In this document: one piece after another, positions 1 through 44,332 of the stretch
Numbering within the stretch: position 1 is the stretch's first letter
How the letters are laid out: every line of letters starts with the position of its first letter
NCBI GenBank assembly: GCA_030037475.1
Contig: JASHRH010000047.1
Coordinates: forward strand, 1-44,450
Source of the DNA: Acidobacteriaceae bacterium
GTDB taxonomy: Bacteria; Acidobacteriota; Terriglobia; Terriglobales; Acidobacteriaceae
DNA: 44,450 nucleotides
Reading direction: 5' to 3'
Notes under the pieces: generated by a model
What the model saw: only the letters and a program-made list of their open reading frames with translations
What the model was told of the DNA's origin: nothing
Database searches by the model: none
Made by a program: the position numbers and the translations under genes

Positions 1-101
1 GCGTTTCGCCGGCAGGCTTTCCATCCTCCTGCCGCGAAAATGCCGTAACCTGATACGTCCGGCAGAGCGGACGGACGAATATGACGGGAAGACGGAGTCA
101 C

Positions 102-3883: not shown

Positions 3884-4015
3884 AGCCCAAATTTCCCCAC
3901 ACAGAATACCAAGGACACGGCCTGAAGCTTCGTGACCTGCTCTCTTCCAGTTTCTCAGGCCGGCGACATCCAGGCAGGCTGTACCGCGTAGCTTGCCCCG
4001 CCGTAGAATCGTCCG

Positions 4016-5425
4016 GTGACGACGAGCTTGTTCGATCTCTTCAAGATCGGCATTGGACCCTCCAGCTCCCACACCATGGGTCCCATGCGTGCCGCTCGCC
4101 GCTTCGCTCTTGAACTGGAAGAATCCGGTGTCCTTCTGCGAACGGCAAAGGTTCAGGTCGACCTCTATGGGTCACTCGCTCTCACTGGATCAGGCCACGG
4201 CACCGACCGCGCCATCCTCCTCGGCCTCAGCGGCGAAGAGGCTGCGACGATCAACCCCGCCACGATCGAACCGAAGCTCGGGGAGATTCGCGCTTCCGGT
4301 AAGCTCTCGCTGCTCGGTCGCCATCCTATTCCCTTTCGGGAACCCGACCACCTGTTCCTGCACCGCGACCAGATGCTTCCTCCCGGCGCAAAGACTCACC
4401 ATCCCAATGGCGTTCGCTTCACGGCCTTTGATACGGCGGGCCAGGTGCTCCGCACCGACACGTTCTTTTCTATCGGCGGCGGCTTCATTGTCGCGGACGG
4501 CGAGAAGCCTGAGAGTGCGGCTGGTGGTAAAGCTGCGGAACTTGCCCTGCCGTATCCGTTTTCCAGCGCCGCCGAGCTGCTCGAGAAGGCTCAGACCGCA
4601 GGGCTCGCCATCTGGCAATTGATGCTCGGCAATGAATCCGCGATCCGCCCGGCGGAGGAGGTCCGCGCCGGGATCCGGCGCATCTGGTCCGTGATGCAGG
4701 GCTGCATGGAGCGCGGCATGATCACGGAAGGCATTCTTCCCGGCGGGCTTGCCGTACGCCGCCGCGCGCCGCGCCTGGCCGAACGTCTGCGTCAGAAGGG
4801 ATCGAGCGCCGCGGCTCCGAGTTCGGATCCGCTTGCGCCGCTCGACTGGGTCACCATTTACGCCATGGCAGTGAACGAGGAGAATGCCGCGGGAGGCCGC
4901 GTGGTGACGGCGCCCACCAATGGCGCTGCCGGCGTCATCCCTGCTGTCGCCCGCTACTATCTCGATTTCATTCCCGGCGCGGATGAGGACGGCATCCTGC
5001 GTTTCTTCCTCACCTCCGCGGCCATTGGCGCGCTGTATCGGGAGAATGCCTCCATCAGCGGCGCCGAGGTAGGCTGCCAGGGCGAGGTCGGCGTGGCGTG
5101 CTCGATGGCCGCCGGCGGCCTGGCCGCTGCGCTGGGCGGCAACAACGATCATGTGGAGCATGCCGCCGAAATCGGCATGGAGCACAACCTCGGCATGACC
5201 TGCGATCCCGTCGGGGGCCTCGTCCAGATCCCCTGCATCGAGCGCAACGCGATGGGCGCGGTCAAGGCCGTCCAGGCTTGCCGCATCGCCATGAACGAAA
5301 CCGAAGGCCACAAGATTTCGCTCGATCAGGTGATCCGAACGATGTATCTCACCGGCCTCGACATGCAGAGCCGGTATAAGGAAACGTCGCTGGCGGGATT
5401 AGCGCTGAATGTGATTGAGTGCTGA
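4016..5425 (+). CDS. sdaA: L-serine ammonia-lyase (iron-sulfur type, single chain)
   Basis: [75 protein letters not shown] start. Confidence 0.96.
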
Positions 5426-5446
5426 GGATTACGCATCGAGCGCAAC

Positions 5447-6211
5447 TTAGCTGAGCCGGCCCCAGCACGCCACGCAGTCGTACTGGATGGTGACGGTGCC
5501 GTTCTGTTGCGTCTCCGTGAAGAGCTGCCGGATCGCCGCCTGCATCTCCGCGAAGCGCGGATGCCCCGGTTGTGGAATATAGGACGAGGAGAGAATCCTC
5601 CCTTCCAGCGCGCCCAGCGTCAGCGACTGCGCGTTGGGGAAGACGTGGCAGTGCATCTCTTCCGGCGCAAAGAACTGCGCCAGCCGACGGCGGCCGACGT
5701 GCTGCTCTTTGACGTTCATATAGTCGATGCCGAACTCGCGCAGCAGGCGCTCGTAACCGTTGTGGAAGGCGTCGCCGCCGAGCCGACGGTTGTTGTAGAT
5801 CACCGCGCAGCCGCCTCCGGGCTTGAGAATGCGCGCAAACTCGGCCCGCGTTCGCTCCAGATCGAACCAGTGCATCGCCTGCGCGACGGTGATCAGGTCC
5901 GCCGAGGCATCGGGAAGGCCGGTTGCTTCGGCTGTGCCGGCGATGCAACGCAGCTTTGGGTACTTCGTCCCGAGCGATGCGCAGGCCGCGCGCATCTCGT
6001 CGTTCGGCTCGAGCGCAGTCACCGCGAACCCCGCCGCCAGAAGGATTTCGGTCAGCAGGCCCGTCCCGGCCGCGACATCTACTACCGTCGCGTCATTGCT
6101 CAGTCCGCAGTCGGTCCGCAGCCACTCCACCAGTTCGGGTGGATACCCCGGCCGATACCGCCGGTAACTCTCGACGCGACCTGTAAAGCGCTCGGTTGGA
6201 TTCGGAATCAA
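5447..6211 (-). CDS. Class I SAM-dependent methyltransferase
   Basis: VVDVAAGTGLLTEILLAAGFAVTALEPNDEM (motif I); likely TTG start at 6211 overlapping the thiolase stop (TTGA). Confidence 0.88.
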   Translation of the reverse strand: MIPNPTERFTGRVESYRRYRPGYPPELVEWLRTDCGLSNDATVVDVAAGTGLLTEILLAAGFAVTALEPNDEMRAACASLGTKYPKLRCIAGTAEATGLPDASADLITVAQAMHWFDLERTRAEFARILKPGGGCAVIYNNRRLGGDAFHNGYERLLREFGIDYMNVKEQHVGRRRLAQFFAPEEMHCHVFPNAQSLTLGALEGRILSSSYIPQPGHPRFAEMQAAIRQLFTETQQNGTVTIQYDCVACWGRLS

Positions 6212-7401
6212 CGCTGGACCCTTTCGACCGCCATGGCCACGGAGTTGCCTCCGCCGAGGCACAGCGCCGCCAGGCCGCGCTTCGCGCCGCGCCGGATCAG
6301 CTCGTGCATCAGGGTCACCAGCACACGGGCGCCGCTGCAGCCGATGGCGTGACCGATGGCTACCGAACCGCCGTTCACGTTCGCCTTGTCGAGCGGAATG
6401 CCCAGCTCGCGCAGCACGGCAAGCGCCTGCGCCGCAAAGGCCTCGTTCACCTCGAAGAGATCAATGTCGCCGACCGACCATCCGACCTTCTCCATCGCTC
6501 GGCGCGCACCGATCACCGGCGCCATCATCACCCACTTCGGATCGATGCCGCTGGTCGCGTGCGCCACGATGCGCGCCATCGGTTTGAGTCCCAGCTCCTT
6601 CGCCTTCGCCGCACGCATTACCACGACGGCGGCTGCGCCGTCGTTGACTCCCGGAGCATTGCCGGCGGTGACTGTGCCGTCCTTTTTAAACGCCGGCTTG
6701 AGCGCACGCAGCGCTTCCAGGCTCGCGTCCTCCCGGATCGCCTCGTCCTTATCGAAGAGCTGCGGCGGCTCGCCCTTTTTCTTTGCCGGAATCTCCACGG
6801 GGACGACTTCAGCGGCGAACCAGCCTTCACGCCACGCTCGGGCCGCACGGCGATGCGACTCCAGCGCAAAGGCGTCCTGCTCCTCGCGCGTGATGCCGTA
6901 CTTCTCCGCGACCAGCTCCGCGGTCTGGCCCATATGGAAGTCGTTGTACACATCCCACAAGCCGTCGTGCACCATGGAATCGACCGCGACCTGGTTGCCC
7001 ATGCGGAAACCGGCGCGCGCCTGCGGCAGCAGATACGGTGCGTTGGTCATCGATTCCATGCCTCCGGCGACGATGATCTCCGCATTCCCCGTCTGGATCG
7101 ATTGCGCCGCCAGCGCGATGGCGCGCAACCCCGACCCGCAAACCATGTTCACGGTCACCGCGCTGACTTCCGGCGGCAAACCGCCATAGATCGCAGCCTG
7201 GCGCGCGGGATTCTGCCCCAGCCCCGCGGACACGACGTTGCCCATGATGCATTCGTCCACCTGCTCCGGCCGCAACTGTGCGCGTTTGACGGCTTCGCGC
7301 ACCACCACCGCGCCCAGGCGCGTGGCGGAAACGCCGGAGAGCGAACCCTGAAACTTCCCAACCGGCGTGCGCACACCGGAGACGATTACGATTTCTTCCA
7401 T
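6208..7401 (-). CDS. Acetyl-CoA acetyltransferase (thiolase)
   Basis: NMVCGSGLRAIALAAQSI (nucleophilic Cys), NVNGGSVAIGHAIGCSGARVLVTL, C-terminal CLGGGNSVAMAVER. Confidence 0.96.
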   Translation of the reverse strand: MEEIVIVSGVRTPVGKFQGSLSGVSATRLGAVVVREAVKRAQLRPEQVDECIMGNVVSAGLGQNPARQAAIYGGLPPEVSAVTVNMVCGSGLRAIALAAQSIQTGNAEIIVAGGMESMTNAPYLLPQARAGFRMGNQVAVDSMVHDGLWDVYNDFHMGQTAELVAEKYGITREEQDAFALESHRRAARAWREGWFAAEVVPVEIPAKKKGEPPQLFDKDEAIREDASLEALRALKPAFKKDGTVTAGNAPGVNDGAAAVVVMRAAKAKELGLKPMARIVAHATSGIDPKWVMMAPVIGARRAMEKVGWSVGDIDLFEVNEAFAAQALAVLRELGIPLDKANVNGGSVAIGHAIGCSGARVLVTLMHELIRRGAKRGLAALCLGGGNSVAMAVERVQR

Positions 7402-7475
7402 AACTTTTCTCGCTGCATGATTCGATGCGAAACTGGCCGTTGGAACAGAGGAAGATATCAGACCGCGAGGTAACC

Positions 7476-8216
7476 ATGCACGTTCCGCAATCGGAAGCCG
7501 CAGCCAGGTGGCGCAGCCGGCTCACCGCCGCCGTGGCTCCATGGTGGCACACAGCCCTGCTTGTACTGCTGCTCGGCAGCGTCTCGTTCCTGAATGCGCG
7601 TCGTACCCGCCATGGCGGCCTGGGCGCCCATCACGTGCAGCTTTACGCCACCGCCATCGTCTCGGAGTGGGTGTTGTTCCTGCTCACGTGGTGGGGGCTC
7701 CGGATGAAGCGCATTCCGCTCGCCGAAGTGCTGGGCTTTCGCCGCGGCCTGCGCGCCTGGGCGCAGGATCTGGGCGCCGCGCTGATCTTCTGGATCGCCG
7801 CCGTTATGATCCTGGCGGTCATCGCCGGAGTGCTGCGGCTTGCGCACTTCGCGTCGGCGCAAAAGGCCGTGACCGCGCTGGCGCCGCGCAACGGCGCGGA
7901 GATGCTGCTGTGGATTGCGCTCTGCCTGACCGCGGGCTTCTGCGAGGAGTTCGTCTTCCGCGGATATTTCCTGCGCCAGTTCTCCTCTCCGCTCCATCGC
8001 CTGTGGCTCGGCGTTCTCCTCTCCTCGCTGCTTTTCGGCATCAGCCACGGTTACGAAGGCGCAGCGGGCATGATCGCCATCGTCGTCTACGGCGCTCTCT
8101 TCTGCGCGCTCGCTCTCGCGCGGGACAGCCTTCGTCCCGGCATGATCGCACACGCGTGGCACGACATCATCACGGGAATCGCGCTGGTTGTGCTGCGTCA
8201 CGCACACCTGCCGTGA
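7476..8216 (+). CDS. CPBP family intramembrane metalloprotease (Abi/CAAX)
   Basis: EEFVFRGYFLRQF (EExxxR) and FGISHGYEG (FxxxH) motifs, multi-pass membrane; start ATG 7476. Confidence 0.88.
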   Translation: MHVPQSEAAARWRSRLTAAVAPWWHTALLVLLLGSVSFLNARRTRHGGLGAHHVQLYATAIVSEWVLFLLTWWGLRMKRIPLAEVLGFRRGLRAWAQDLGAALIFWIAAVMILAVIAGVLRLAHFASAQKAVTALAPRNGAEMLLWIALCLTAGFCEEFVFRGYFLRQFSSPLHRLWLGVLLSSLLFGISHGYEGAAGMIAIVVYGALFCALALARDSLRPGMIAHAWHDIITGIALVVLRHAHLP

Positions 8217-27420: not shown

Positions 27421-28701
27421 TCACTTCACGTTTCCGATGCCGCCACGCAGCTCTGCTTTGATGGAGGCGATTTTGGAGCCGACCTCGGGATCCTGTTTCA
27501 TGGATTTCCAGCTATCCTGCAACAGCGCTGTGAGAACACCCAGGATGAGTCCCAATATCGTTGCGACGAAGAGGATGAGGAGGCGCTTCGGAGACGACTT
27601 GTGGTCCGGCACGATGGCCGGATCCACCACCTGAATCGGCGCGCCTTCTCTCGCCTGGTCCAGTCTGGCCAGCTCGTACTGCCGCGCCAGCACTTCGAAG
27701 ATCGTTTCGTAATATTTGACGTCGCGCAGCCGACGCACGTACTCCAGGCTGGCCTGAGGCACCATGCCTTTGGGTATGATCAGGGAATTGGGGTTCTGCT
27801 GCGAGCCGGCCAGACTTGCCAACTGGTCCTGGAGGCCTTTCAGTTCCTGCTGTGCCTCGATGATCTGGGCATTTTCGCCGGTAGCGAAGGTCTCCAAAGC
27901 CTGAATCTGAACCTCCTTGGCTGCAATCTGGGCACGCAGAGTAATGCCAGCATCAATCAGCGCACGCGCCTGGCTGGTGGGCTCGATCACGCCCGAGGTT
28001 TCCTCCATCTGCTCCAGAGACACTTCCGCATCCGCAAGCTTGTCTTTCGCCTGCTCGAGCTGCCCTCGGAAGAACTGAGCCCTCTGTCCCGCTTCCGTGA
28101 TCGCCAGGTGCTGCGAAAGATCCCGAAATAGATCGATGTAGCCATTGGCCAGCTCGGCGGCGCGCTGTGCATTCCGGTCCTCGACCGAGACATGGATCAG
28201 CCCGTCCTTGCCGTCGCCTTTGACCGTGACGTGATCCTCAAATTGCCTGCGTGCCGTTGAAAGGAGCTTCTTATGATATTCGCGCATCAAGCCGAAACGC
28301 TGCACCATACCATCCTCGACGGTTTGGCTTTTCAGCATGGCAACACACATGTCAATCGGATTTCTGATTCCGAAGCCGCCGCCGGTCAGTCTTGCCAGCG
28401 CGTCCAGGCTGCCCATCTCGGAGCCGAACGCTGCCGAAAGAGAAGACGATTCCAGCTGCGGGGGAAGCAGGACGACCTCCGCGGTGTACTCTTTCGGGGT
28501 GAGAAACGCGAGAAGGATACCCACCAGTACGCAGCTCGCCGTCACCCATGCAACTGTCCTCTGCCGCCTCGCGACGACGAGAACCAGGTCGAGCATAGAG
28601 ACTTCATGCTGATCGCAGCCGCCTGAAACATCAGTCCCCAGCGGTCGCGGGGAAGTCCTGGGCGACTGCTCGAAGTCGGAAACAGGTGTTTCGGTATTCA
28701 T
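27421..28701 (-). CDS. Wzz/GNVR-type polysaccharide chain-length determinant (co-polymerase)
   Basis: N-terminal TM after basic region, LTPKEYTAEVVLLPPQ; coiled coil; QYELARLDQAREGAPIQVVDPAIVPDHKSSPKRLLILFVATILGLILGVL. Confidence 0.92.
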   Translation of the reverse strand: MNTETPVSDFEQSPRTSPRPLGTDVSGGCDQHEVSMLDLVLVVARRQRTVAWVTASCVLVGILLAFLTPKEYTAEVVLLPPQLESSSLSAAFGSEMGSLDALARLTGGGFGIRNPIDMCVAMLKSQTVEDGMVQRFGLMREYHKKLLSTARRQFEDHVTVKGDGKDGLIHVSVEDRNAQRAAELANGYIDLFRDLSQHLAITEAGQRAQFFRGQLEQAKDKLADAEVSLEQMEETSGVIEPTSQARALIDAGITLRAQIAAKEVQIQALETFATGENAQIIEAQQELKGLQDQLASLAGSQQNPNSLIIPKGMVPQASLEYVRRLRDVKYYETIFEVLARQYELARLDQAREGAPIQVVDPAIVPDHKSSPKRLLILFVATILGLILGVLTALLQDSWKSMKQDPEVGSKIASIKAELRGGIGNVK

Positions 28702-29437: not shown

Positions 29438-30727
29438 TCATTCCAGATGCGATTCCCAGGCTGGTTGCGTAAGCCGGTGCGCTTTATCATTGGATTCTGC
29501 TAAGTTAATCTCCTGGTGCGACTTCGGCCCGGTATGTCGCATCCATCTCCAGGCAAGGAGAAATGGCCGAAGCGGAAGATAAAGCCAGAAAAGGCGATCC
29601 GGGAGACGCAGCAGTTCGAAATCGACAGTGGAGTACGCGACTTCTGCGAAGGCCTGGCGCCAGGACCTGCGGGGCCGGAGCAAACCTTCGTAATGTGGTT
29701 GGCGCATCATCATACGGAATCTGGCGAGAAGAGAAAGTCGATGTATTTCGGTCCGAGCCTGCATGCAGACGGACACGTGGTCAAGGAGCAGGACGGGCAG
29801 GCTCTCAGCCGCTTCGCGCAGAGCCTCGGGCACGGGCAGCCCGTGCAGCTCCTTCAGCAGACGCAGGCTTTGCAGCAGCGATTTTTCTGAGCCTGTGTCG
29901 CAACCATCCCGATAAGCGGCATCCCAATCCACATAACCCATCGCATACATACGAGCGAGGTCACCCAGCCATTTCGACCGGAACCACGCGTGGCCGCTGC
30001 CGTGTTCGCAAAGATGGAGAGTCAGGTCAGTCCTGCTCAGAGACTGAAAGCGGAGGCCGTTCCAGGCCGATGCGGTGCTTCGCTCCCATTGTCTCGCCGT
30101 GCGATCACGAGTTTCCCATCTCGTACGCCAGTGGAGGTCGAGGGAGCACCGGTGCAGCGGATGCCAGTAGACTATGTGGTGATGGATCTCAAAATACACC
30201 TCACTATGGCGGGGGCTGAACGTCGGCTGCAGGTGCACTCGCCAGCCCATCTTCTCAAGCCGCGCCTGAGCCGTGGACATATCGTTAAAAGCCACCATGA
30301 TATCGATGTCCTGAGAATGACGAATCCCCAGGTCGCCGTAGAGTTCGAGCGAAAGAAGCGGGCCCTTCAACAGGATCAGGGGAATGCCCGCCTGGTTGAA
30401 GTCTTTGAGCACCTGCATCAGCAGCGACGTCAGCCTCGTCGCCTGCATCCGGCAGGCGGCGCTGTGCCGCTGCAGCGGCACCCTGACCGTTGCCGGAATA
30501 TTTGCCTCTGGCACCCGCTTCAGCGTTTCCCAGCTCAGAACCGGAGTTCTGTGCCGCTGGACGAGAGTGAGATACTCGTCCCAGTCCGGGCCCGAGTGCA
30601 GGGCTGAGCGAATCGCTCGATCCTGATGCTCCTGCCACGGCTCCGGCGCCAGCCAGGAAGTAGCGAGCATGAGCCGGAATGCGGGACTGCGGCCTGAGAA
30701 CGTTTTGGATCTCTTTGTTGTCATCAC
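29438..30727 (-). CDS. NTP_transf_5-type nucleotidyltransferase (lasso/EPS-associated)
   Basis: ILLKGPLLSLELYGDLGIRHSQDIDIMV motif; EIHHHIVYWHP; DLHWRT. Confidence 0.88.
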   Translation of the reverse strand: MMTTKRSKTFSGRSPAFRLMLATSWLAPEPWQEHQDRAIRSALHSGPDWDEYLTLVQRHRTPVLSWETLKRVPEANIPATVRVPLQRHSAACRMQATRLTSLLMQVLKDFNQAGIPLILLKGPLLSLELYGDLGIRHSQDIDIMVAFNDMSTAQARLEKMGWRVHLQPTFSPRHSEVYFEIHHHIVYWHPLHRCSLDLHWRTRWETRDRTARQWERSTASAWNGLRFQSLSRTDLTLHLCEHGSGHAWFRSKWLGDLARMYAMGYVDWDAAYRDGCDTGSEKSLLQSLRLLKELHGLPVPEALREAAESLPVLLLDHVSVCMQARTEIHRLSLLARFRMMMRQPHYEGLLRPRRSWRQAFAEVAYSTVDFELLRLPDRLFWLYLPLRPFLLAWRWMRHTGPKSHQEINLAESNDKAHRLTQPAWESHLE

Positions 30728-30852: not shown

Positions 30853-32757
30853 TTAGCCAGTACTGCTCAGGGCCGCGGGGAACTCATTTCCCGAAGCCGC
30901 TATGCTGGGCATCTGTTCGGAAACTGAGAACAGCGTTCCGTCCTCCAGACGGCGCAGAAAGCGTCCCAGCGAAAGTGCGCGGAGCAGCCTGGGCCAATGG
31001 CGCAGCATCCCGCCGCGTGCGTCGCCCTGCGACAGAGACAGCCGCAGCATGGCTTCCATTGCCGGCAGGTCGAGTGCATGGCCGATCAGATTCACCTGCT
31101 TCATCCGCTCCAGCTCGACCAGAGCCTCCTCGCGCACCGACTCAAAGCGGGTGCTGAAATCGGCGGCCTGCAGCCCTTTGCGGCGCTCAGTGCGCACCTG
31201 CTCCGGCAGTCGCCCGATCATTGCATTACGAATCAGCGAGCGGGGCACACCCTTTTCGCAGTAGTACTCGACAGGAACAGAGAGGCAATATTCGATTACT
31301 CTCCGGTCGCCCGCAGGATCGGACATGCCCACACCGGTTAGCTGCCGGAAGCCTGAAGTAAAGGGTCCCGGGTCGGCTCTGAGCAAAGCCAAAAGACGCA
31401 ACCCGCGGCTGTCGAGCCTGGCGTGGCTTTGCTCCAGTGCCATCAGACCAAGGTCGTGCTTGTGCGCGAATTCCCGTTGGATCATCGAGTACTCGTGCGT
31501 GGCTGCGAATTGACCATGCAGACGGTCGATTGCATAACGCACACGCATCGGCATCCAGGGACGAAGCATCTCGTGTACGAGCGATCGCCAGTGCCGCGGG
31601 CCCTGGCGGTGCAGGTCCCGCGCCAGACGTGCGAAGGCTGCGAGTCGCCCTTTCCGCAGGAGCGACTGCAACGCGCGATCCCCGCTGTAGCTGATGCTGT
31701 AATTGCCACACCCGCCGGTCAGGAGTATTTCTATGCCACGCTGCTGAGCCCGCAGACAAATCTCATAGATCCAGTCATAATTCGACGGGTTGAAGATTGG
31801 CTCTTCCTGCACCGAATTGAACAGATCGATCACGGAAAACAGGGAATGCGCTCCGTGCCGCACCAGAATGTGATCGATATTCGGGTACATGGCCGCTACC
31901 GCGGCCGCGTGCGGCCCCTCGTCGGTGAACCGGCCTGGTACCTCAACGGCATGCTTCGGAACCGCCGTGAAGGCAAAGAGCCCGCGGCCTTCCTGATTCA
32001 GCAGTTGCGCCGCTGTAACCGTGACTGAGGAGCTGTCCAGCCCTCCGCTTAGTTGCGTGCCAACTGCCGAAGTTCCCGTCATGCGGTCTCGTACCGAGCG
32101 CTCGAGCATCTCCACGAGGCCCTCGGCATATTCGCGCGAATCGCGCAGCCGGAGCAGCGGAGTCTCCTCCGGCCGCCAGAAGCGACGCACGGAAATGGAC
32201 CCATCCTCGACGGCCAGAGTGGTCCCCGGTATCAGACGAAAGATCCCATCGAAGAAGGTTTCGGTTGTCGGTTTGGGGAAGAGCGCGAGCCACCGCGCAA
32301 TATGCCGCTCGTTTGGGCGCGCGAGTACGCCCGGCCAGCGCAACAGATGGCGAATTTCATCGGCAAAAACCAGGTCATTGCCGCGCTGGGTGTAGTAGAG
32401 CGGCCAGCTGCCCAGGGGATCGCGGCCCAGGAGCAGTCGCTGCCTATATGCATCCCACAAAACAAAGGCATAGTCGCCGTCTATGTGATTCGGAAATTCG
32501 TCGCCCTGTTTGCGGTATGCGCACAGCAGGAACGACGCCTGATCCGCCGGCTCCGCTCCCAGCTCCCGCCTCTTATCCGCCGTTGCGAATACTTTCCCTG
32601 ACAGCAGCACATACAGGCTGCCGTAAGCAGCGTCAGGCTTCCGGCCCCACAATGTTAGTCTGGAGCCGCTGGACACATAAGAAGGTATCTGAGCCAGACC
32701 AGCTCTATCATCTGGGCCGGCTCTCGCTCCTGAACCGAGGACTCCGAGAAAAGACAT
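30853..32757 (-). CDS. Asparagine-synthase-like protein, probable lasso macrolactam synthetase (C protein)
   Basis: DGDYAFVLWDAYRQRLLLGRDPLGSWPLYYT; ATP-PPi loop QLSGGLDSSSV; N-terminus MSFLGVLG lacks the catalytic Cys2 of glutaminases. Confidence 0.9.
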   Translation of the reverse strand: MSFLGVLGSGARAGPDDRAGLAQIPSYVSSGSRLTLWGRKPDAAYGSLYVLLSGKVFATADKRRELGAEPADQASFLLCAYRKQGDEFPNHIDGDYAFVLWDAYRQRLLLGRDPLGSWPLYYTQRGNDLVFADEIRHLLRWPGVLARPNERHIARWLALFPKPTTETFFDGIFRLIPGTTLAVEDGSISVRRFWRPEETPLLRLRDSREYAEGLVEMLERSVRDRMTGTSAVGTQLSGGLDSSSVTVTAAQLLNQEGRGLFAFTAVPKHAVEVPGRFTDEGPHAAAVAAMYPNIDHILVRHGAHSLFSVIDLFNSVQEEPIFNPSNYDWIYEICLRAQQRGIEILLTGGCGNYSISYSGDRALQSLLRKGRLAAFARLARDLHRQGPRHWRSLVHEMLRPWMPMRVRYAIDRLHGQFAATHEYSMIQREFAHKHDLGLMALEQSHARLDSRGLRLLALLRADPGPFTSGFRQLTGVGMSDPAGDRRVIEYCLSVPVEYYCEKGVPRSLIRNAMIGRLPEQVRTERRKGLQAADFSTRFESVREEALVELERMKQVNLIGHALDLPAMEAMLRLSLSQGDARGGMLRHWPRLLRALSLGRFLRRLEDGTLFSVSEQMPSIAASGNEFPAALSSTG

Positions 32758-32836
32758 GCCGATTCAACACATCGAGTAGTGAATTGATGAGGTTGCTATC
32801 TGGTTCACCGAATGCTCTCGGTTCTGCGCAGCACTG

Positions 32837-32998
32837 CTAACTGGCATCGGCATAGACACCCAAATCGGGGCCGCCGCCGCTCACAACGTTCTCGGCCTTG
32901 CTCACGAGCAACTCTTCGACGTCCGGTGTTTGCCAGGGCCTCCGCGCGAAATCTCCTTGTTCCTGATTCACTTTGGCGTTGTGGTTCACTTTTTCCAC
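32837..32998 (-). CDS. Candidate lasso-peptide (RiPP) precursor, 53 aa
   Basis: GTG start at 32998 with AAAGGAG SD 7 nt upstream; translated: MEKVNHNAKVNQEQGDFARRPWQTPDVEELLVSKAENVVSGGGPDLGVYADAS*. WxxP-x-VEEL leader motif; Gly-rich core with PD; C-terminal Ser; immediately upstream of the cyclase. Confidence 0.72.
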   Translation of the reverse strand: MEKVNHNAKVNQEQGDFARRPWQTPDVEELLVSKAENVVSGGGPDLGVYADAS

Positions 32999-33111
32999 GA
33001 TTGATCTCCTTTAGGGTTGGGAATCTGTGCGATTTAGTCCGGACGGAGCCCTGGTTCAAGGGTGACTTTCATTCGATTCTCGAATCGGGAAGAAGACTCC
33101 ATACGCACCGT

Positions 33112-33337: not shown

Positions 33338-33790
33338 TCACCGCGCAAAAAAACCAATCTCGACGCAGTGATGCGCCTCGGGATAGCCGGTTACCTCGAT
33401 GCCGCAAACATCGACCCATGCATGGGTAATCAACTTCGCGCGTTCCGGGTCGCGCGATGCACCGCAGTGGATGCGGCTCCAAATCCCGCGCACATGCAGC
33501 ATCTGCCATGCGGCCAGCGCGCGGGGCAAACAGACCAGCCGCACAGGCAGAAGCCAGGCAGACCGGTTGATCGCCCAGGAGATTTCGCGTGCGACCATTC
33601 GATTCCTGCTCGAATCAGCCCGAAGATCGGCGGGGGCATGCAAATGGCCGATGTGGCGAGCAATGAGCGGAAACCTCACAAGCACGAGGGCGAACCTGGC
33701 CATGACCAGCCAGAATGCCGCCTCGAGGAGAAGAGAGCGTCGTCTCCACGACAGCCCGCGAAATTTATGCCATAGCCGGAGGACGGACAT
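33338..33790 (-). CDS. Lasso peptide biosynthesis B2 protein (transglutaminase-like leader peptidase)
   Basis: VCLPRALAAWQMLHVRGIWSRI ... THAWVDVCGIEV: Cys/His/Asp arrangement of the B2 family; start ATG 33790 overlaps PqqD gene. Confidence 0.88.
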   Translation of the reverse strand: MSVLRLWHKFRGLSWRRRSLLLEAAFWLVMARFALVLVRFPLIARHIGHLHAPADLRADSSRNRMVAREISWAINRSAWLLPVRLVCLPRALAAWQMLHVRGIWSRIHCGASRDPERAKLITHAWVDVCGIEVTGYPEAHHCVEIGFFAR

Positions 33791-34061
33791 CGATGGCCTT
33801 TCGGAGAAGCAATTGATCGAGAAACGCGAGCACCTCCGGTCGCGCCGCGTCCGGCTCGATGTCAAACTCGCGGCTCAAAGCCTCGCACAAATCCGAAACA
33901 CTGCGCGGCGATTCCAGCAACTCCCATATACGGCTGCCCGATCCCGTGAGATTCAAATAAAATTCGCTTTCGGCATGCATCATAATGAGGCTCTCGTCCA
34001 CCCACGCGGCAATCCATCCTTCGCGCCGGGCAATCAAACTGTTTTCAGTCACTGTGAGCAC
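33765..34061 (-). CDS. PqqD family protein (B1 / RiPP recognition element)
   Basis: GESEFYLNLTGSGSRIWELLESPRSVSDLCEALSREFDIEPDAARPEVLAFLDQLL-type PqqD signature (window reads HAESEFYLNLTGSGSRIWELLE...). Confidence 0.9.
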   Translation of the reverse strand: MLTVTENSLIARREGWIAAWVDESLIMMHAESEFYLNLTGSGSRIWELLESPRSVSDLCEALSREFDIEPDAARPEVLAFLDQLLLRKAIDVRPPAMA

Positions 34062-35062
34062 TCCTTCCGCAAATTGGCTTCCTCGCGCGATTCCAGCCCG
34101 CTGGGCGTGCCAACTGCGGAATGCGCCGATTCCACCAGCCGGGCAACCTCACCCAGGCGGTCCAGTGCGCGCGGGCGGTCCAGACGATATATGGGCACAG
34201 TCGCGGCCACCGTGGCGATATGACGAAAAAGCTGGTTGTGCAACCCCAGATTATGGCCCATCCACCCGCGATGGGCCTGGTTCTCGATAAAGGCGAAGGC
34301 ATCCTTGCCTCGGAGCGGTGATCGACTTACCTGATCTCCCCCAGGCGTATCCAGCGCATAGACTGCCCCCAATGGAATCGCATGTCGAATCGCCTCCACC
34401 GACTGAATGGCAGCCACGCCGAAGTGTCCCTTCAGCCCTTGTGCCGCCTGGGAATACGTGACTGCCTCCCCCATTTGGAAGCAATCGATCGCATCGCGCA
34501 GTAACTTGACTCGCGGAAAGGCGGGTCGAAGCATCGGCTGCCTTAGATTGCTCAGGTCGATCGCGCAAACGTCATCGCAGAGTAGCGGATGGCCGCGCCG
34601 CGCCAGTGCCGTCGCAAGAGTGGATTTCCCCGTTCCTCTCGCGCCGGAGAAGACTATGGCCTTGCCATCCAAAAGCACGCACGAACCGTGCAACGGAAAG
34701 AGGCCGCGCCGATAACAGAGAATTGCCAGTACAGACCCGAACAGATATGCGCGCAGCAACAGCGGATCCACGCCCTCTTCCGGTTGAACGGTAACGTGGT
34801 CGGCTCCAGGATTCACTCGAAAGCCCGCGACACCCTTCACGCGGAGCGAAATGCCATCCTCGCCATTGGTAAAGGGGTCTTCAGTGTCATCCAGTGGCGA
34901 TCCCTGCAATTCGATCCGGATGCTTTCCTCAGGGCGCAATTTCTGCGATTCGCCCCATGGCATGAGCTCCGGCAGTGGGATGGCCGACTCCAGATGCCAG
35001 CCGCAGAGAACATACGGGCCATATTGGGAGGCGCCATTGAATGACATCGCGTTAACGCTCAT
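34049..35062 (-). CDS. HPr kinase-like (HprK-related) kinase, putative lasso peptide kinase
   Basis: LFPLHGSCVLLDGKAIVFSGARGTGKSTLATALARRGHPLLCDDVCAID (Walker A GARGTGKST). Confidence 0.88.
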   Translation of the reverse strand: MSVNAMSFNGASQYGPYVLCGWHLESAIPLPELMPWGESQKLRPEESIRIELQGSPLDDTEDPFTNGEDGISLRVKGVAGFRVNPGADHVTVQPEEGVDPLLLRAYLFGSVLAILCYRRGLFPLHGSCVLLDGKAIVFSGARGTGKSTLATALARRGHPLLCDDVCAIDLSNLRQPMLRPAFPRVKLLRDAIDCFQMGEAVTYSQAAQGLKGHFGVAAIQSVEAIRHAIPLGAVYALDTPGGDQVSRSPLRGKDAFAFIENQAHRGWMGHNLGLHNQLFRHIATVAATVPIYRLDRPRALDRLGEVARLVESAHSAVGTPSGLESREEANLRKECSQ

Positions 35063-35107: not shown

Positions 35108-36070
35108 TCAATGTTGTTGCGGCGCGGAGCCGAAGCGACAACTCAGCAGCCCCCGCAGATTAAACAAACCATCGTTCGTCACGGGCGCGCCTTGAGTTCG
35201 ACTGACCGCCAGAGGCGCATAAAATGCATCCACGGTAAAGGCAATCCGCCTGGTGAACAGATAGCTGGCGCCGCCCACTGTCGAGAACATTCCGCCACGT
35301 GTCCATTGCCGCGTTTGCGCCAGGCCAATGGTGAGCGGTGCGTGCGACTGGAAAGCGACATCGACAAAAGTGCCAGCCACAGAGGCATGAGGAACCAGTT
35401 TCGGCAGCCGCGGCAGCGGGTGCGATACCTGAAACTGCATTCCCGCAAAGTGCAACGAAGCTATATCTGCGGACAGTGCTATGCAATCGGTGGGGTTTTC
35501 CGATGAGCCGGGGGGAAATGCCAGTACACTCTGTGGGCAAGTGAATGCGCCTTTTACCGACCCGACTTGCCCATATCCCTGCCAATCAAGTGTCCATCGC
35601 CCACGCTCCAATAAAGGTCGCTCCAGGCCGAATGCAAAGAGCCGCGGCTTGATGCCAAACGTGGAGATGGGCGGTGGCGCGGTCGCGAATGCCCTGAGGT
35701 TCCATGGCAGTTGTACTCCGATGACAGGCCGGATCAGTACGGGCGCCTTATTCAAATCTTCAAACTTAGTCCCGTTGAAGCCGACGGTCTCCTGGGCCAC
35801 GCTGAGCGTCGGTAGCCAATCTGTTTCCAATCCCACCGAAATCGCGCCGGCACTCCGCTGTTCCTCCGGAGCAGCCGGCAGCATCGTACTCGGCAGGGTC
35901 GCCGCGTCAAAACGCCTGAGAGCCCAAGCCTCCGGACGGTCGAAGCTGATATGCAGGTTCGGAATCGCACTGGAGGTTTGAGCGACGATGCTGCCGCTGA
36001 CGGTGATTCCCAGGAACATAATCAGACCAGTTATTTTTCCAATCGGAAGGCGGGAAGTGAATGAAATCAT
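35108..36070 (-). CDS. Secreted/outer-membrane protein of unknown function (beta-barrel-like)
   Basis: Signal peptide-like N-terminus (GLIMFLGITVSGSIVAQT); beta-rich pattern; AGGAGA SD upstream of ATG 36070. Confidence 0.6.
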   Translation of the reverse strand: MISFTSRLPIGKITGLIMFLGITVSGSIVAQTSSAIPNLHISFDRPEAWALRRFDAATLPSTMLPAAPEEQRSAGAISVGLETDWLPTLSVAQETVGFNGTKFEDLNKAPVLIRPVIGVQLPWNLRAFATAPPPISTFGIKPRLFAFGLERPLLERGRWTLDWQGYGQVGSVKGAFTCPQSVLAFPPGSSENPTDCIALSADIASLHFAGMQFQVSHPLPRLPKLVPHASVAGTFVDVAFQSHAPLTIGLAQTRQWTRGGMFSTVGGASYLFTRRIAFTVDAFYAPLAVSRTQGAPVTNDGLFNLRGLLSCRFGSAPQQH

Positions 36071-36731: not shown

Positions 36732-37718
36732 ATGAATATCGTGGCCTTTCCGGAGTTGTCGGGAACTGAAATGCCAGGGACCACCGCGGCCACTACAATG
36801 GACCATTTCAGCCTATGGGTTGTGTCGCCTGCCCGTCGCGGCCTTGATTGCTGCGCGGCGGCGGCGGCGCTGTTCTGTTGCCTGCCATTGTTCATGCTGG
36901 CCGCGGTGGCTGTGCGGCTCAGTTCCCCGGGGCCCGTCCTGTTCCGCCAACGACGGGTGGGGCGTCATGGTGTGACATTCACTCTCTATAAGTTTCGATC
37001 GATGCGCGTGAACGATCAGGGTGGTGTTCCAATCACAATACTCGGGGACCGCCGTGTCACAAAGGTCGGACAGTTTCTCCGTCGATTCAAGCTGGACGAG
37101 CTGCCACAGTTGTGGAATGTCCTCTGCGGCGACATGGCTCTCGTGGGCCCTCGTCCCAAGCTGCCCCAGCACGAGGGTCTGAATCTTTGCTGGCGGCCCG
37201 GGCTGACCGGCGCGGCAAGCCTCGCATTTCGAGACGAAGAAGAATTGCTCTCCGAAATTCCTGAAGAACAGCTCGAAGAGGTTTACGAGAGATACGTAAA
37301 ACCTACAAAAGCATGTCTCGATTCCGAATACATGCTGAACGCAACACTCTTGTCGGACATCGAAATCTTATGGAAAACGGCTGTTTCCTGCCTTACTCCA
37401 TGGAAATGCGCTCGCGTGCTTTCCGCTGACTTCCTCGAAAGCCCTTTGGCCCGCCCGTTGTGCAGTGCGGACATCGCCCAGGAACTCGCGTCCCTTACCA
37501 TGCGTTCTTCGCCGACCCGGAAGCGCAGCGCCTTATTCCGCCTCTCCACAACTCGCGTCAGCAGCTCGACGATCACCGGCACTTCCAGCGGTTCCGGGAC
37601 TTTATCAAAGGAAAGCGAACTCATCTCCTCATCGCCGCGCGGAGGTGTTTGCGATGCGTGCAGTTACAATCCCGGCGGGGCTTTCGAGGACTTTTCAACT
37701 AAGGTCATTTCATCCTGA
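36732..37718 (+). CDS. Undecaprenyl-phosphate sugar phosphotransferase (bacterial sugar transferase)
   Basis: [75 protein letters not shown]. Confidence 0.93.
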
Positions 37719-37815
37719 CTCAGGACCCTGCGACCACAACTGGGTGAACTGAGGAACCTGTTCGATCATCAGGAACCCCAAGAATATCCTGGATCGGCAA
37801 GAAAATGAGGCAAGT

Positions 37816-40557
37816 TTGTCGCGGACTGATCTCACTGGGCTTAGAGCGGAAGCGGCACCGGCATTTGCTTTTCTCTCCTGCAATTTCGCTGTCGTGTTAT
37901 TTTCTTTGCGCCGTGTCTTCGCCTCCCGGCTTGCCGCGCTACGTTTCCGGGACAGCCTCACTATCCTCGCGGCCCTCCTGGTCCTGGCGCTCGCCACCAA
38001 TCCTGCGGCTCGCGCCCAGAATCTGCCGGATCAGGACCTTCTTGGTTCGGGCAGTTCGGCCGTTCAAAGCCAGCATAACTCAACGGACTGCTCCGATCCT
38101 CTGCTGGCGAACTCGGCGCTTTGCTCCTCGCTCAGTTCCGGCCAGGATTCAGCCGTTTCACCCATGCTCCTGGGAACTGTGGGTATGGTGCGGCCCGGCG
38201 CCTCCAATTACATGGATCTCAAGCCCTTCGGTAACCCACACAGCTCCTCTCCGCCGGTGAAACTTCCTCCGCAGCCGCTCACCGAATTCCAGAAGTTTGT
38301 GGCGTCCACCACCGGCGAGGTACTGCCTATCTTCGGCGCGGACTTATTCCGCGAAGTGCCGTCCACCTTCTCCGCGCTGAGCATGACTCCCGTCCCTCCC
38401 AGTTACCTCATTGGTCCCGGCGACGAGCTGCGCATCCGGGTCTGGGGCCAGGTTAACTTCAGCGCTGACGTGCGTGTGGACCGCGCCGGTGAAATCTATC
38501 TGCCCCAGATCGGCCAGGTGCACGTCGCGGGCCTGTCGTTCTCCGATCTGCAAAGCCATCTGCGCGACGCGATCAGCCGCGTGTACCGTAATTTCCAGCT
38601 CACGGCCGATATCGGCAGCATTCGTTCCATCCAGGTCTACGTCACTGGCCAGGCACGCCGCCCCGGCGTCTATACCGTCAGTTCGCTCAGCTCTCTGGTC
38701 GATGCGATCTTCTCGAGCGGCGGTCCATCCGCCTCCGGCTCTCTGCGCCACATCGAGCTGCGCCGCAATAGCCGTACCGTCACGACATTCGATCTCTACG
38801 CGCTGCTCATCCGTGGCGATAAATCGCAGGACGCGCCGCTCCAGTCAGGCGACGTCATTTTCATCCCGCCCGTCGGCCCGCAGATTGCCTTTGTCGGCAG
38901 CGTTCGCAACCCGGCCATCTACGAAATGCTTCCTGGCGAGCCGCTCTCGCAGGCCATCGCGGACGCTGGCGGACCCTCGGCCGTCGCCTCGCAGACGCGT
39001 ATCTCCGTCGAGCGCATCGACGCCCATCGAGATCGCTACGCCATGGAGGTCACCTGGAACTCGGCTGGCCTGGCCACGCCGCTGCATGACGGCGATCTGG
39101 TGCGCCTGTATTCCATCCTGCCCCTCTACCAGAAGACCGTGACCCTCCGCGGCAATACCGCCAATCCCGGCCGTTTCGCCTGGCATGAGGGCATGCGCCT
39201 CAGCGACCTGATCCCCGATAAGGCTTCTCTGGTAACACGCAATTACTGGTGGAAACGCGCCCAGCTCGGTCTGCCCGCGCCGGAATTTGAGCTGCTCGAC
39301 AGCTTCCCGTCCCTGCTTCAGCCCAGCGGCCCTGTGGATCTCGCTCGTGCCCAGTTCCTCGGCCAGGCGCCCGCTCCGCTTTCGCAAGATTCCACGGCCC
39401 CTTCCGCTTCCGGAAGCGGCGCGCAGCAGGAGGCCAATTCCTCAATCTCGCCGCAGACCGATGCATCCGGGACGGCGCCAAACTTTGCGAATCCCTCGGC
39501 CCAGCCGCGCTCGGCCAGCGCCTCGGTTGCCGCGGAATATGCCGCACCCTCCATGCAAGGCACCACGTCGCGCACCACCGTCGGCGCGTTGGCTCCCGAT
39601 ATCGACTGGCATTACGCCGTCATCGAGCGCCTGGACCCCAGGACCCTCAAAACCCGCCTGATTCCCTTTGACCTTGGCCGCCTCATTCTCGACCACGATC
39701 CTTCACAGAACCTTCCGCTTCAGCCCGGTGACGTGGTCACTGTCTTCTCCCAGGCTGACATTCGCGTTCCCATCGAGCAGGAAACCAAATTCGTCACCCT
39801 TGAAGGCGAGTTTGTTCACGCCGGCGTTTACACCGTGCGTCCTGGCGAAACCCTGCGCGATCTCGTCCGCCGTGCCGGCGGCTTTGCGCCTGGTGCGTAT
39901 CTCTACGGTTCGCAGTTCACGCGCGAATCCACACGCGCCCTGCAGCAGCAGCGCATCGACGAGTACGTGGACGAGCTGGAAATGGAAATGCAGAACAGCG
40001 CGATGGCTCTCATCTCCGCTGCCGCCGTATCTCCCGGCGCCATGGCCGGAGCACCCGCTGCTCAAACCAGCGAGCAGGCGCTCATTGCCCGTCTGCGCAG
40101 CGTCCGTGCGACCGGACGCATCGTGCTCCAGTTCAATCCCCGCAGCAGCGGCCTCGCCGTGCTTCCCAGCATCGTTCTCGAAAACGGCGACCGCTTCGTC
40201 GTGCCTCCTGTCCCTTCGAGCGTGAATGTCGTGGGCGCCGTCTACGATCAGAATTCATTCCTGTACCGTCCCGGGATGCGAGCCGGCGAGTATCTGCACC
40301 TGGCCGGCGGTCCCAACCGGGACGCCGATCGCAGGCACATGTTCATCATTCGCGCCGACGGCTCCGTCGTCAGCCGCGACGCTGCCAACACACTATGGGG
40401 CAATGGAATCGACGCCCTGCTCATGAATCCCGGCGACACCATCGTGGTGCCGCAAAGGGTCCTGAAGCCTTCGCCGCTGCTGGGCATGCTGGCCTGGTCG
40501 CAGTTGTTCTCGCAGTTCGCTTTGGGCGCTACCGCCCTCAGCGTAGTAGCTCCCTGA
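37816..40557 (+). CDS. SLBB-domain polysaccharide export protein (Wza-like)
   Basis: Signal peptide; PSYLIGPGDELRIRVWGQVNFSADVRVDRAGEIYLPQIGQV; multiple SLBB repeats (VYTVRPGETLRDLVRRAGGF). TTG start as given; exact start uncertain. Confidence 0.93.
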   Translation: MSRTDLTGLRAEAAPAFAFLSCNFAVVLFSLRRVFASRLAALRFRDSLTILAALLVLALATNPAARAQNLPDQDLLGSGSSAVQSQHNSTDCSDPLLANSALCSSLSSGQDSAVSPMLLGTVGMVRPGASNYMDLKPFGNPHSSSPPVKLPPQPLTEFQKFVASTTGEVLPIFGADLFREVPSTFSALSMTPVPPSYLIGPGDELRIRVWGQVNFSADVRVDRAGEIYLPQIGQVHVAGLSFSDLQSHLRDAISRVYRNFQLTADIGSIRSIQVYVTGQARRPGVYTVSSLSSLVDAIFSSGGPSASGSLRHIELRRNSRTVTTFDLYALLIRGDKSQDAPLQSGDVIFIPPVGPQIAFVGSVRNPAIYEMLPGEPLSQAIADAGGPSAVASQTRISVERIDAHRDRYAMEVTWNSAGLATPLHDGDLVRLYSILPLYQKTVTLRGNTANPGRFAWHEGMRLSDLIPDKASLVTRNYWWKRAQLGLPAPEFELLDSFPSLLQPSGPVDLARAQFLGQAPAPLSQDSTAPSASGSGAQQEANSSISPQTDASGTAPNFANPSAQPRSASASVAAEYAAPSMQGTTSRTTVGALAPDIDWHYAVIERLDPRTLKTRLIPFDLGRLILDHDPSQNLPLQPGDVVTVFSQADIRVPIEQETKFVTLEGEFVHAGVYTVRPGETLRDLVRRAGGFAPGAYLYGSQFTRESTRALQQQRIDEYVDELEMEMQNSAMALISAAAVSPGAMAGAPAAQTSEQALIARLRSVRATGRIVLQFNPRSSGLAVLPSIVLENGDRFVVPPVPSSVNVVGAVYDQNSFLYRPGMRAGEYLHLAGGPNRDADRRHMFIIRADGSVVSRDAANTLWGNGIDALLMNPGDTIVVPQRVLKPSPLLGMLAWSQLFSQFALGATALSVVAP

Positions 40558-40644
40558 TGTGGTGCGGCATTCAGATTGTCGATTACGAAGGATGGCGCAG
40601 GAACGGCACTGCTGATCGTCCATTTGAGATGGAGATTCATTTCG

Positions 40645-41955
40645 ATGTCTGGATCACGCTTCAGAGGCACTTCCTGGAAGACCCTTGACAGGGTCATAGG
40701 GAGCTCGCTGGCGCACGACTCGGGGTGGGTCTTTGTGGGGCAGGGAATGAGTTACGCCTTTCAGGTGGGTTACTTCATTCTTCTGGTGAGAATGCTGGGG
40801 GTGGAACAATACGGCGTCTTCGCCGGAGCCGTAGCTCTGGCTGGGATCGCTGCTCCTTTCGGCAGTCTGGGCGCGGGCATGCTGTTCATGCAATATGTCA
40901 CCCGCGATCCGAGTGAATTTCAGCGGTATTGGGGCAACGTTTTTTTGTCGACCGCCGGCATGGGAATCCTGCTGGTCGTTCTGTTACGGGCAGCGGCTCC
41001 GCACTTTCTCAGCACCGGAAGCGCCGCAATCATCGTGCCGGTAGCCATTGCCAGTTGTCTCCTGGCCCAGTTTATCCAGTCGGTAGTACAGATTTTTCAG
41101 TCGTACCAGCGCATGCGCGTGGCCGCTTTCTGGAGCACGCTGATGAACCTGTTGCTGTTTCTGGCAGGGGTCGGCCTGTTTCTTGCCTTTCGACGCATCA
41201 CCGCCGAGCAATGGGCAGTGACCTTTGCCTCTGTATCCGCAGTGATCGCGCTCGCCGGGGCGTTTGCGGTCACGATGCAATACGGGAGGCCCAGGCTGGA
41301 ACCTCGCCTGACGCTGCGCAGGGCAGCGGAAGGCGTGACGTTTTCCGTTTCCAGTTCGACAACTTCGTTTTACAGCGATTTCGATAAGACCCTGCTAAGT
41401 CACTATGGGATGAATATAGCCAACGGGTTCTACACCGCGGGTTTTCGCATCATCACAATGGCTTCGCTTCCGGTTTATTCCGTGGAGTGGGCATCCCTGC
41501 CGCGCTTTTTCCAGGAGGCGAAAAACGGCGTACCCGCAGTGGTCCGCCAGGCACACAAGATTCTCCGCCACGTGTGCCTGATCGGCGCGCTGGCTGGAGC
41601 CGGAGTGCTGCTTCTCTCTCCTGTCGTTCCTCACCTTCTTGGCCAGGGCTTCGCGCACAGCGTCTCGGTGCTGCGCTGGCTGTTTCTGCTGCCCGTCTTC
41701 CGGAGCGTGCATTACATCATGGGCGCCGCTCTGACCGGAACAGGGTACCAGCGATATCGCACAGCAGCGCAGATACTGGTGGCCCTGCTGAACCTTGGCC
41801 TCAATCTGCTCTGGATTCCGGAACACAGCTGGCTCGGCGCGGCGATGGCCAGCCTCATCAGCAATGGCGCGCTGGCGGCGATCTGCTGGACCCTGATCGT
41901 GTATCTGGCGCGGCGATCCCCAGGCATGCCTCGCACGGATGGGAGAGCGGCATGA
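40645..41955 (+). CDS. Oligosaccharide/polysaccharide flippase (Wzx-like)
   Basis: WVFVGQGMSYAFQVGYFILLVRMLGVEQYGVFAGAVALAGIAAPFGSLG; ~12 hydrophobic segments. Confidence 0.9.
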   Translation: MSGSRFRGTSWKTLDRVIGSSLAHDSGWVFVGQGMSYAFQVGYFILLVRMLGVEQYGVFAGAVALAGIAAPFGSLGAGMLFMQYVTRDPSEFQRYWGNVFLSTAGMGILLVVLLRAAAPHFLSTGSAAIIVPVAIASCLLAQFIQSVVQIFQSYQRMRVAAFWSTLMNLLLFLAGVGLFLAFRRITAEQWAVTFASVSAVIALAGAFAVTMQYGRPRLEPRLTLRRAAEGVTFSVSSSTTSFYSDFDKTLLSHYGMNIANGFYTAGFRIITMASLPVYSVEWASLPRFFQEAKNGVPAVVRQAHKILRHVCLIGALAGAGVLLLSPVVPHLLGQGFAHSVSVLRWLFLLPVFRSVHYIMGAALTGTGYQRYRTAAQILVALLNLGLNLLWIPEHSWLGAAMASLISNGALAAICWTLIVYLARRSPGMPRTDGRAA

Positions 41956-43448
41956 CACTGAGGCTCCTGCCCATCCGCAGCAAATCGCACCGCAACTTGC
42001 GGCGGATTGCCGGTCGGATGCCGCACGTCCTGCGGCGCGGAATCGGCCTGCTGCTGATTTCCACCGCTTTCACGTTCGTCGTTTTGCACGCGCTTTCCTT
42101 CAGCCTGAGCCTCGCCGGGCTGTCCGTCATGCTGCTGCTCATCGCCTTCCTCATCCTGATTGCGGTTGCATCCACGCAGCAGGGAATCACAGGTCTGATC
42201 GGACTTTTCTTCTTAACCACCGTTGTGTTCAACCTCGGCAGACCGATTTTGTGGCTGTTCACCCGAGAGGATACTGTCTACGATCTGGCATTTGGCTTCA
42301 GCTATTCCGCGCCGGAAGACATCAAGATTCAGTTACTGCTCTTCTGGTGCATTGCAATTGCCGGGTTCTTTGGCGGCTATTTTGCATTCTTCCGCGAGCG
42401 GCCTTCCACCTGCCCGCCTCTTGCGCCTGTCACCCTTGGGTACTGCCGGCGCGCATTCTTCATGACTCTGGCTATCATCTGCACGGTAATCCCCTTCCTG
42501 CTGGCCAGCAATCTGCGCACGTTCGCTGCTGCGGGATATGCCGGCCTGTACAGGGTGCAGACGCACTACCGCTTCAGCCTGCTTCGGGTGGCGGAATACC
42601 TTCTGCCGGTTCTGTTTGCTCTGGCCGTTCTGCTTCGCCGACGGCGGTATGCACGGCTGACGGCCATCGTAGCAGGGTTTTACATTCTGACCGGTCTGCT
42701 GGTGGGCCAGCGAGCTTCCATCGGCGAGTGGATTCTGGTGGCCATCTGGTACATGACCACGATCTCAGGGAGGCGTCCCAATCGCTGGTTCCTGCTCGGG
42801 GGCGGTGCGGTGATGATCGTGTTTTTTCAGCTTTTGGCAGGATGGCGGCAGGGGCAGACAACTTCGCTGACGGCACTTGAATTCTTCATCCAGCAGGGTG
42901 TGACGTTTCTGCTGCCGGAACTCAGCAGCCAGTTTCCGCGCCCCCCGATCCATACGGTCGCCGCCAGCCTGTTTCCGCTCGGAGGCATGGATTCGCTACT
43001 CGGCATCGGCTCGGCCGAGACGGAGAGCCTGGGAAACTATCTCAGCTCTCACGCGAACATTCTGCGGTTCGAGGCCGGTTACGGGATGGGGAGCACCTTT
43101 TCCCTCGAAATCTATTATGCCGTTGGCGCCATTCTTGTTCTGTTTGCGGCAGGGTGCGTCGTTGCAGGCTGGATCCTGCAGAGATGGGAGGCTGGCGCAC
43201 AGCGGGGCAATCTGGCGCGCTTTTACCTGTGCGCCTGCCTTCCCTATATTTTCTTTCTGCCGCGGGGCAGCATTTCTCTGGTTAATGCGGGGTTGATTTA
43301 TGCGAGTGCCTATATGGCAGGTGTCTGGTTCCTGATTACCGTGCTGGTTTTCGCTTCCCGCCCGCGATCAGCTGGTATGCGAAAACACCTGGTGATGGGC
43401 GGTCCGCTTTCCAGCACAGACCACTCACCGGAAAGCCTCCAAAGCTAA
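41952..43448 (+). CDS. O-antigen/EPS polymerase-like membrane protein (Wzy-like)
   Basis: ATG 41952 overlaps Wzx stop (ATGA); many TM segments, large periplasmic-type loop; genomic context Wzx-Wzy-GT. Confidence 0.8.
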   Translation: MTLRLLPIRSKSHRNLRRIAGRMPHVLRRGIGLLLISTAFTFVVLHALSFSLSLAGLSVMLLLIAFLILIAVASTQQGITGLIGLFFLTTVVFNLGRPILWLFTREDTVYDLAFGFSYSAPEDIKIQLLLFWCIAIAGFFGGYFAFFRERPSTCPPLAPVTLGYCRRAFFMTLAIICTVIPFLLASNLRTFAAAGYAGLYRVQTHYRFSLLRVAEYLLPVLFALAVLLRRRRYARLTAIVAGFYILTGLLVGQRASIGEWILVAIWYMTTISGRRPNRWFLLGGGAVMIVFFQLLAGWRQGQTTSLTALEFFIQQGVTFLLPELSSQFPRPPIHTVAASLFPLGGMDSLLGIGSAETESLGNYLSSHANILRFEAGYGMGSTFSLEIYYAVGAILVLFAAGCVVAGWILQRWEAGAQRGNLARFYLCACLPYIFFLPRGSISLVNAGLIYASAYMAGVWFLITVLVFASRPRSAGMRKHLVMGGPLSSTDHSPESLQS

Positions 43449-43453
43449 ACAGG

Positions 43454-44332
43454 ATGATTTCCCTCATTGTGAGCACCCTCGGCCGAACCGATGAACTGGA
43501 GCGGTTTTTGGCAACTCTCGATACCCAGGTCTTCCGCGATTTCGAAGTGATTCTGGTCGACCAGAATCCGGACGATCGCCTGAAGCCGCTGCTGGCGCGG
43601 CATTGCCGGCTGCCAATACAGCATCTGCGGTCGGCGAAGGGGCTTTCGCGGGGACGAAATGTCGGCCTCGCGGTCGCTCGCGGAGAGATCGTCTCGATCC
43701 CCGATGACGATTGCTGGTACCCGCCCGATCTGCTGGCTGAAGTGCATTCCTGGTTTCAGCAACACACGGACTTCGCGATCCTGTTTACAGCGGTTCGCGA
43801 CGAGACCGGGGAACTGCAGGGTCCAAGGCGGAGGAGTGTCGAGGCGTGCGAGTGCGACCGAAACGCGGTATGGCATTGCGGAATTTCCTTTAATGCCTTT
43901 TTGCGTCGATCGGTGACACAGAGTGTCGGACAGTTCGACGAGAGGCTTGGAGTCGGGTGCCCAACCGTCTTCAAGTCCGGCGAGGAAACGGATTATTTCC
44001 TGCGCGCGCTGGATCTGGGGTATCGCGTGTGGTATCAGCCGGAGTTATCCATTTGTCACCCATTTCTTCGCAATGTGAAGCGCATACGCAGGGACATCTA
44101 TCCTCGTGCGATGGGGGTTGGTTTCGTTCTGCGCAGACACGGGTACTCACTCGTGCGCCTGTGCACGAATTTTGTGGCCCGTTCATTCGGCGGCAGCCTG
44201 ATCTCGCTCTGCACTATGGATTTCGGCATGGCACAAGTGCGCCTTCTGCAGGGCTGCGGCCAGCTGGCTGGCTATATTCACGCGGGCAAATTGCTGCGGT
44301 GCGAGATTTGCGTCCAGGGAGAATGCTCCTGA
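43454..44332 (+). CDS. Glycosyltransferase family 2
   Basis: MISLIVSTLGRTDELERFLATLDTQVFRDFEVILVDQNPDD; GLSRGRNVGLAVARGEIVSIPDDDCWYPPDLL. Confidence 0.93.
   Translation: MISLIVSTLGRTDELERFLATLDTQVFRDFEVILVDQNPDDRLKPLLARHCRLPIQHLRSAKGLSRGRNVGLAVARGEIVSIPDDDCWYPPDLLAEVHSWFQQHTDFAILFTAVRDETGELQGPRRRSVEACECDRNAVWHCGISFNAFLRRSVTQSVGQFDERLGVGCPTVFKSGEETDYFLRALDLGYRVWYQPELSICHPFLRNVKRIRRDIYPRAMGVGFVLRRHGYSLVRLCTNFVARSFGGSLISLCTMDFGMAQVRLLQGCGQLAGYIHAGKLLRCEICVQGECS

Follow-up and report, generated by a model that had tools for sequence, protein, structure and literature searches.

Phosphorylated lasso peptides of the paeninodin type (PadeA/PbaA), described from Bacillota, arise from precursors with a WxxP leader motif at positions -15 and -12 and a C-terminal Ser, which is the phosphorylated residue of paeninodin (PMC13352647), and their clusters encode a discrete RRE and B2 protease, an HPr-kinase-like kinase and an NTP transferase. 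The leader of PbaA is numbered W-15, P-12 and L-10 in the solved RRE complex (PMC13381572). The bsf cluster of Bradymonas sediminis (PMC10368454) includes A, B1, B2, C, kinase and nucleotidyltransferase genes, and its precursor carries YxxP at -17, Ile at -2 and Gly at core position 1; the kinase acts on Ser3 and an ABC transporter is present. Metanodin from Steroidobacterales, with Thr(-2) and an isopeptidase in its cluster, was overlooked by automated annotation, and Asn as the first ring residue is reported as first proved there, in 2025 (PMC12670498). The window analyzed in this study, a stretch of 44,450 nucleotides from an Acidobacteriaceae bacterium, carries on the minus strand an operon of kinase, RRE, B2, precursor, cyclase and nucleotidyltransferase genes. 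The enzyme set and the leader, with Trp22 and Pro25, agree well with the paeninodin type, as do the kinase motif and the C-terminal Ser53, but the source is acidobacterial, Ala replaces Thr at -2, core position 1 is Asn and the enzymes are only distantly similar. The same gene set and a non-Thr penultimate leader residue are shared with bsf, and the first ring residue and the escape from annotation with metanodin.

An overlooked precursor gene

The peptide MEKVNHNAKVNQEQGDFARRPWQTPDVEELLVSKAENVVSGGGPDLGVYADAS, 53 residues in length, is the translation of positions 32837..32998 of the minus strand, starting at GTG with AAAGGAG located 7 bases upstream, exactly as an earlier note on this DNA had described the ORF, its coordinates, start, spacing and translation. 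It lies between the gene for the lasso B2 protease and that for the Asn-synthetase-type cyclase. The listed ORF at 32805..33059, which that note had dismissed as wrong-frame, runs in a different frame, and stop codons interrupt that frame in the matching part of the ortholog L051. At the equivalent position upstream of the cyclase, L051 encodes MEKVNCPAEVNRKQQDHARRAWQTPVVEELLVNETEVVISGKGPDGGIYSDS and L081 encodes MEEMNGTEEIGQLQEVGARKPWQTPVVEELPMNEAEAAIHGSGGDFGIYS; their cyclases are 79% and 69% identical to that of the window and their precursors 62% and 44%, respectively. Conservation upstream of orthologous cyclases, the check that the note had proposed for its own refutation, was thus found in both loci. 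The pairwise dN/dS of the precursor orthologs is 0.35-0.40 and all indels are whole codons, a pattern that marks the ORF as being under purifying selection in orthologous loci.

Among 399 genomes drawn from the family, 30 contained relatives of the cyclase, and the closest named matches are Acidobacteriaceae MAGs. About 30 further related cyclase loci carry a matching precursor, either adjoining the cyclase or a short distance away. The window was also searched for small RBS-preceded ORFs with WxxPx[LVI], Ala or Thr at Trp+13 and Asp or Glu at Trp+21..23, and 32837..32998 was the single match, while a set of 200 first-order Markov sequences, each as long as the window, contained 4 matching ORFs in total; since the pattern was derived from the relatives, this search is supportive rather than stand-alone evidence for the ORF. 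A GTG start and the lack of a family match in Pfam or NCBIfam might suggest a chance or decayed frame, with the true precursor encoded elsewhere, but the conservation under selection in two orthologous loci, the position-matched precursors in some 30 more and the absence of any other motif-bearing ORF from the window leave that explanation scarcely credible, and conservation by itself largely refutes it. A second convincing copy of the peptide was not found in its own genome. On these comparative grounds the short ORF is a genuine gene, predicted to specify the precursor of a lasso peptide, a knotted molecule made of a ring and a tail.

Enzymes of the operon and the predicted product

The cyclase C (30853..32757, minus strand, 634 aa) matches PF00733 (9.9e-26, over the Pfam cut-off) and retains the SGGLDSS motif, with no Cys after Met1; its best NCBIfam model is the lasso cyclase NF033535, at 240 bits, below the curated cut-off of 525. 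B2, the transglutaminase-like leader peptidase (33338..33790, minus strand), scores 73.9 bits with NF033537 (cut-off 33) and matches PF13471. Its ORF opens at 33865, from which C112 (CLPRAL) and H148 (HAWV) are numbered, and the start is likely to be the ATG at 33790. B1 (33765..34061, minus strand, 98 aa) is a PqqD-like RRE with PF05402 at 2.3e-16, over the Pfam cut-off, and 56.8 bits against NF033536 (cut-off 80), and its profile matches the lasso RRE structures in the PDB best, 9x90_B (a lasso PqqD chaperone) first together with TbiB1 (5v1u). The HPr-kinase-like peptide kinase K (34049..35062, minus strand), with TIGR04352 at 3.5e-10 and PF07475 at 1.9e-6, both below cut-off, matches HPr kinases in the PDB and keeps the H..GxxGxGKS..DD motif intact as H125, GARGTGKS and DD163. 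The nucleotidyltransferase N (29438..30727, minus strand; NTP_transf_5, PF14907 2.9e-47) belongs to a type that accompanies phosphorylated lasso clusters, and its homolog follows C directly in L051 and L081. None of the operon genes was recognized as encoding a transporter. The gene at 35108..36070 was considered as a further member and rejected, its homolog being absent from every related locus.

With this enzyme set, its active-site motifs intact, we consider it highly probable that the product of the ORF is processed into a phosphorylated lasso peptide resembling paeninodin, with the ring between Asn37 and Asp45 and the leader cut after Glu36, even though the cyclase, B1 and the kinase all score below curated NCBIfam cut-offs. 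By analogy with the binding, order and chemistry established for paeninodin and Bsf (PMC5067487; PMC10368454), B1 would bind WQTPDV (-15 to -10), phosphorylation by the kinase would precede removal of the leader, B1 and B2 would jointly cut after Glu36, and the cyclase would link the Asp45 side chain to the Asn37 amino group, closing a 9-residue ring around the tail LGVYADAS, which is presumed to be threaded. The most likely phosphorylation site is Ser53, because the C-terminal Ser is kept across the window's own clade (L051, L081, L082, L087 and L088) and is the residue modified in paeninodin; Ser40 (core 4) would be the second option, given that BsfK acts on Ser3. An RRE, an HprK kinase and an NTP transferase are common to the clusters of linear polyphosphorylated peptides (LPPs) as well (PMC13381572), and threading cannot be read from a sequence, so that the product might instead be an unthreaded, branched-cyclic peptide or a linear phosphorylated one. 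LPP clusters, however, are described without a macrolactam cyclase and with an archaeal-type signal peptidase, whereas this operon has both a cyclase and a B2 whose motifs are intact, no signal peptidase is found among the annotated operon genes and the position of the Asp is conserved for ring closure, and a non-lasso product is accordingly rated as very improbable.

Exopolysaccharide genes (Wzz, sugar transferase, SLBB/Poly_export, Wzx, Wzy and GT2) flank the cluster at 27421-28701 and 36732-44332 of the window, an arrangement that echoes the paeninodins of Bacilli (PMC13381572). As a general feature this association was rejected, since, of 24 relatives, G522 alone has Poly_export less than about 15 kb from the cyclase (at 11 kb), many of the contigs being short, and it is probably local. 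In several Acidobacteriaceae (G135, G531, G477, G107 and G394) the cluster is split: the cyclase, with the precursor where found, is separated from the B1, B2 and kinase genes (L089, L096, L099, L103 and L086 versus L183, L186, L187, L188 and L182) by distances from tens of kb up to Mb, or lies on a different contig, and one genome sometimes encodes two or three cyclases. In L087, the interval 1482-5793 contains a pair of divergent cyclase genes, each sharing about 52% identity with that of the window, and a recognized precursor lies beside only one of them. L030 has at 6635-8084 a B2 and kinase pair close to that of the window, with 48% identity for B2, and neither a precursor nor an RRE or cyclase gene in the vicinity.

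Register of the core

Alignment to L051, L081, L082, L087, L088 and L100, together with the W-15 numbering, assigns residues 1-36 to the leader and residues 37-53, NVVSGGGPDLGVYADAS, to the core. The motif WQTPDV then occupies -15..-10 and the leader ends in SKAE with Ala35 at -2 and Glu36 at -1, followed by the ring NVVSGGGPD, in which Asp45 is core 9, and the 8-residue tail ending in Ser53. The core start at Asn37 follows from the paeninodin-type leaders, whose Trp(-15) and Pro(-12) correspond to Trp22 and Pro25. In the Thr-bearing relatives L051, L082, L087, L088 and L045, Trp+13 is the penultimate leader position, as seen at the junctions (slash) ETE/VVISGKGPD in L051, QTE/NSTVFATD in L082, ETE/SDFIAVTD in L087 and ETE/SGVSVPSSD in L088. 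With the core placed at Trp+15, Asp or Glu falls at core 7-9 in all 26 precursors that have Ala or Thr at Trp+13 (core 9 in 13, core 8 in 11 and core 7 in 2). A second precursor group (L083, L097 and L111-L114), with Thr at Trp+14, was left out of the register setting.

The earlier note had listed Asn37, Val38 and Val39 as possible starts, of which the first, with its 9-residue ring, is supported by the relatives and the leader numbering, and the other two are not. A core beginning at Val38 or Val39, with a ring of 8 or 7 residues, would still be made by the same lasso system; the Y-17/P-14/L-12 numbering of Bsf (PMC10368454), if laid on Trp22, would give Val39, and a start at Trp+16 is only slightly worse, leaving the acid at core 7-9 in 24 of the 26 relatives (13 of 26 at Trp+14). 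Thr at Trp+13 in the Thr(-2) relatives, with which the Val39 start conflicts, and the W-15 numbering of the paeninodin-type WxxP leader both place the core at Trp+15, however, making these shorter rings very improbable. A start at Gly43 with a 2-residue tail, also raised before, was rejected, because no relative has such a geometry. The register beginning at Asn37 is thus the supported one. As the note had observed, Gly, Ala or Ser is indeed missing from core position 1; Asn recurs there in L082, L095, L100 and L117. Its main reading, that of a divergent lasso precursor whose leader carries WxxP, is borne out by the relatives and by the paeninodin-type RRE-leader numbering (PMC13381572), while its alternative of a different macrolactam chemistry finds no support, since the aligned relatives explain the odd features. 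As judged from sequence, this is an unusual-looking but standard lasso precursor in a known family, with no new chemistry.

The penultimate leader residue and the recognition domain

The note was also right that the expected Thr(-2), a usual though not strictly defining lasso feature, is absent, Ala35 standing in its place, while the nearest ortholog, L051, retains Thr. Ala is the commonest residue at this position, in 21 of the 26 related precursors. Non-Thr residues at -2 (Ile, Val and Ala) were predicted earlier, and as far as the citation of that work goes Ala(-2) is on record as a prediction only (Kretsch 2023, as cited in PMC10368454). For Bsf, Ile(-2) is proved and BsfB1/B2 process the non-Thr leader, but the Ile(-2)Ala variant was not cleaved (PMC10368454).

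Tyr36 of B1 aligns with BsfB1 Tyr37 and FusE Tyr33, which belong to the S2 pocket, and a tyrosine at this position is proposed to touch Thr(-2). When this position was compared (window 33765-34061; L098, L101, L109, L034, L181 and L189-L198), Cys stood in the RRE of 16 out of 21 systems with Ala(-2), and Tyr in that of 30 out of 31 with Thr(-2); the 52 pairs, made by genome and not by operon, as many Ala systems have the RRE elsewhere in the genome, comprise Thr/Tyr (30), Ala/Cys (16), Ala/Tyr (5) and Thr/Cys (1). Changes on the tree were few (4 and 5), and a phylogenetic sign test with 4 independent pairs (2 agreeing, 0 disagreeing and 2 without difference) was too small for significance. The window is an exception, combining Ala(-2) with Tyr36 in an RRE that groups with the Thr/Tyr systems. 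A Tyr-to-Cys change in the RRE was therefore rejected as the cause of its own Ala(-2), which is best read, because Tyr36 is kept and the RRE groups in this way, as a recent, tolerated change. It is possible, though we put it forward tentatively and at somewhat less than even chance, that the S2 pocket of Acidobacteriaceae lasso systems has been reshaped, with Thr(-2) giving way to Ala and the RRE Tyr to Cys, and that the window represents a state in which Ala(-2) has arisen with the Tyr still there.

The locus contributes a further lasso precursor, one of those overlooked by motif-based annotation, and offers a rule for reading such precursors, by counting 15 from the Trp of WxxP. Asn1 in L082, L095, L100 and L117 widens the single proved case of metanodin. 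The pairing of a leader residue with the domain that recognizes the leader and completes the pocket of the protease presents a testable case of co-evolution.
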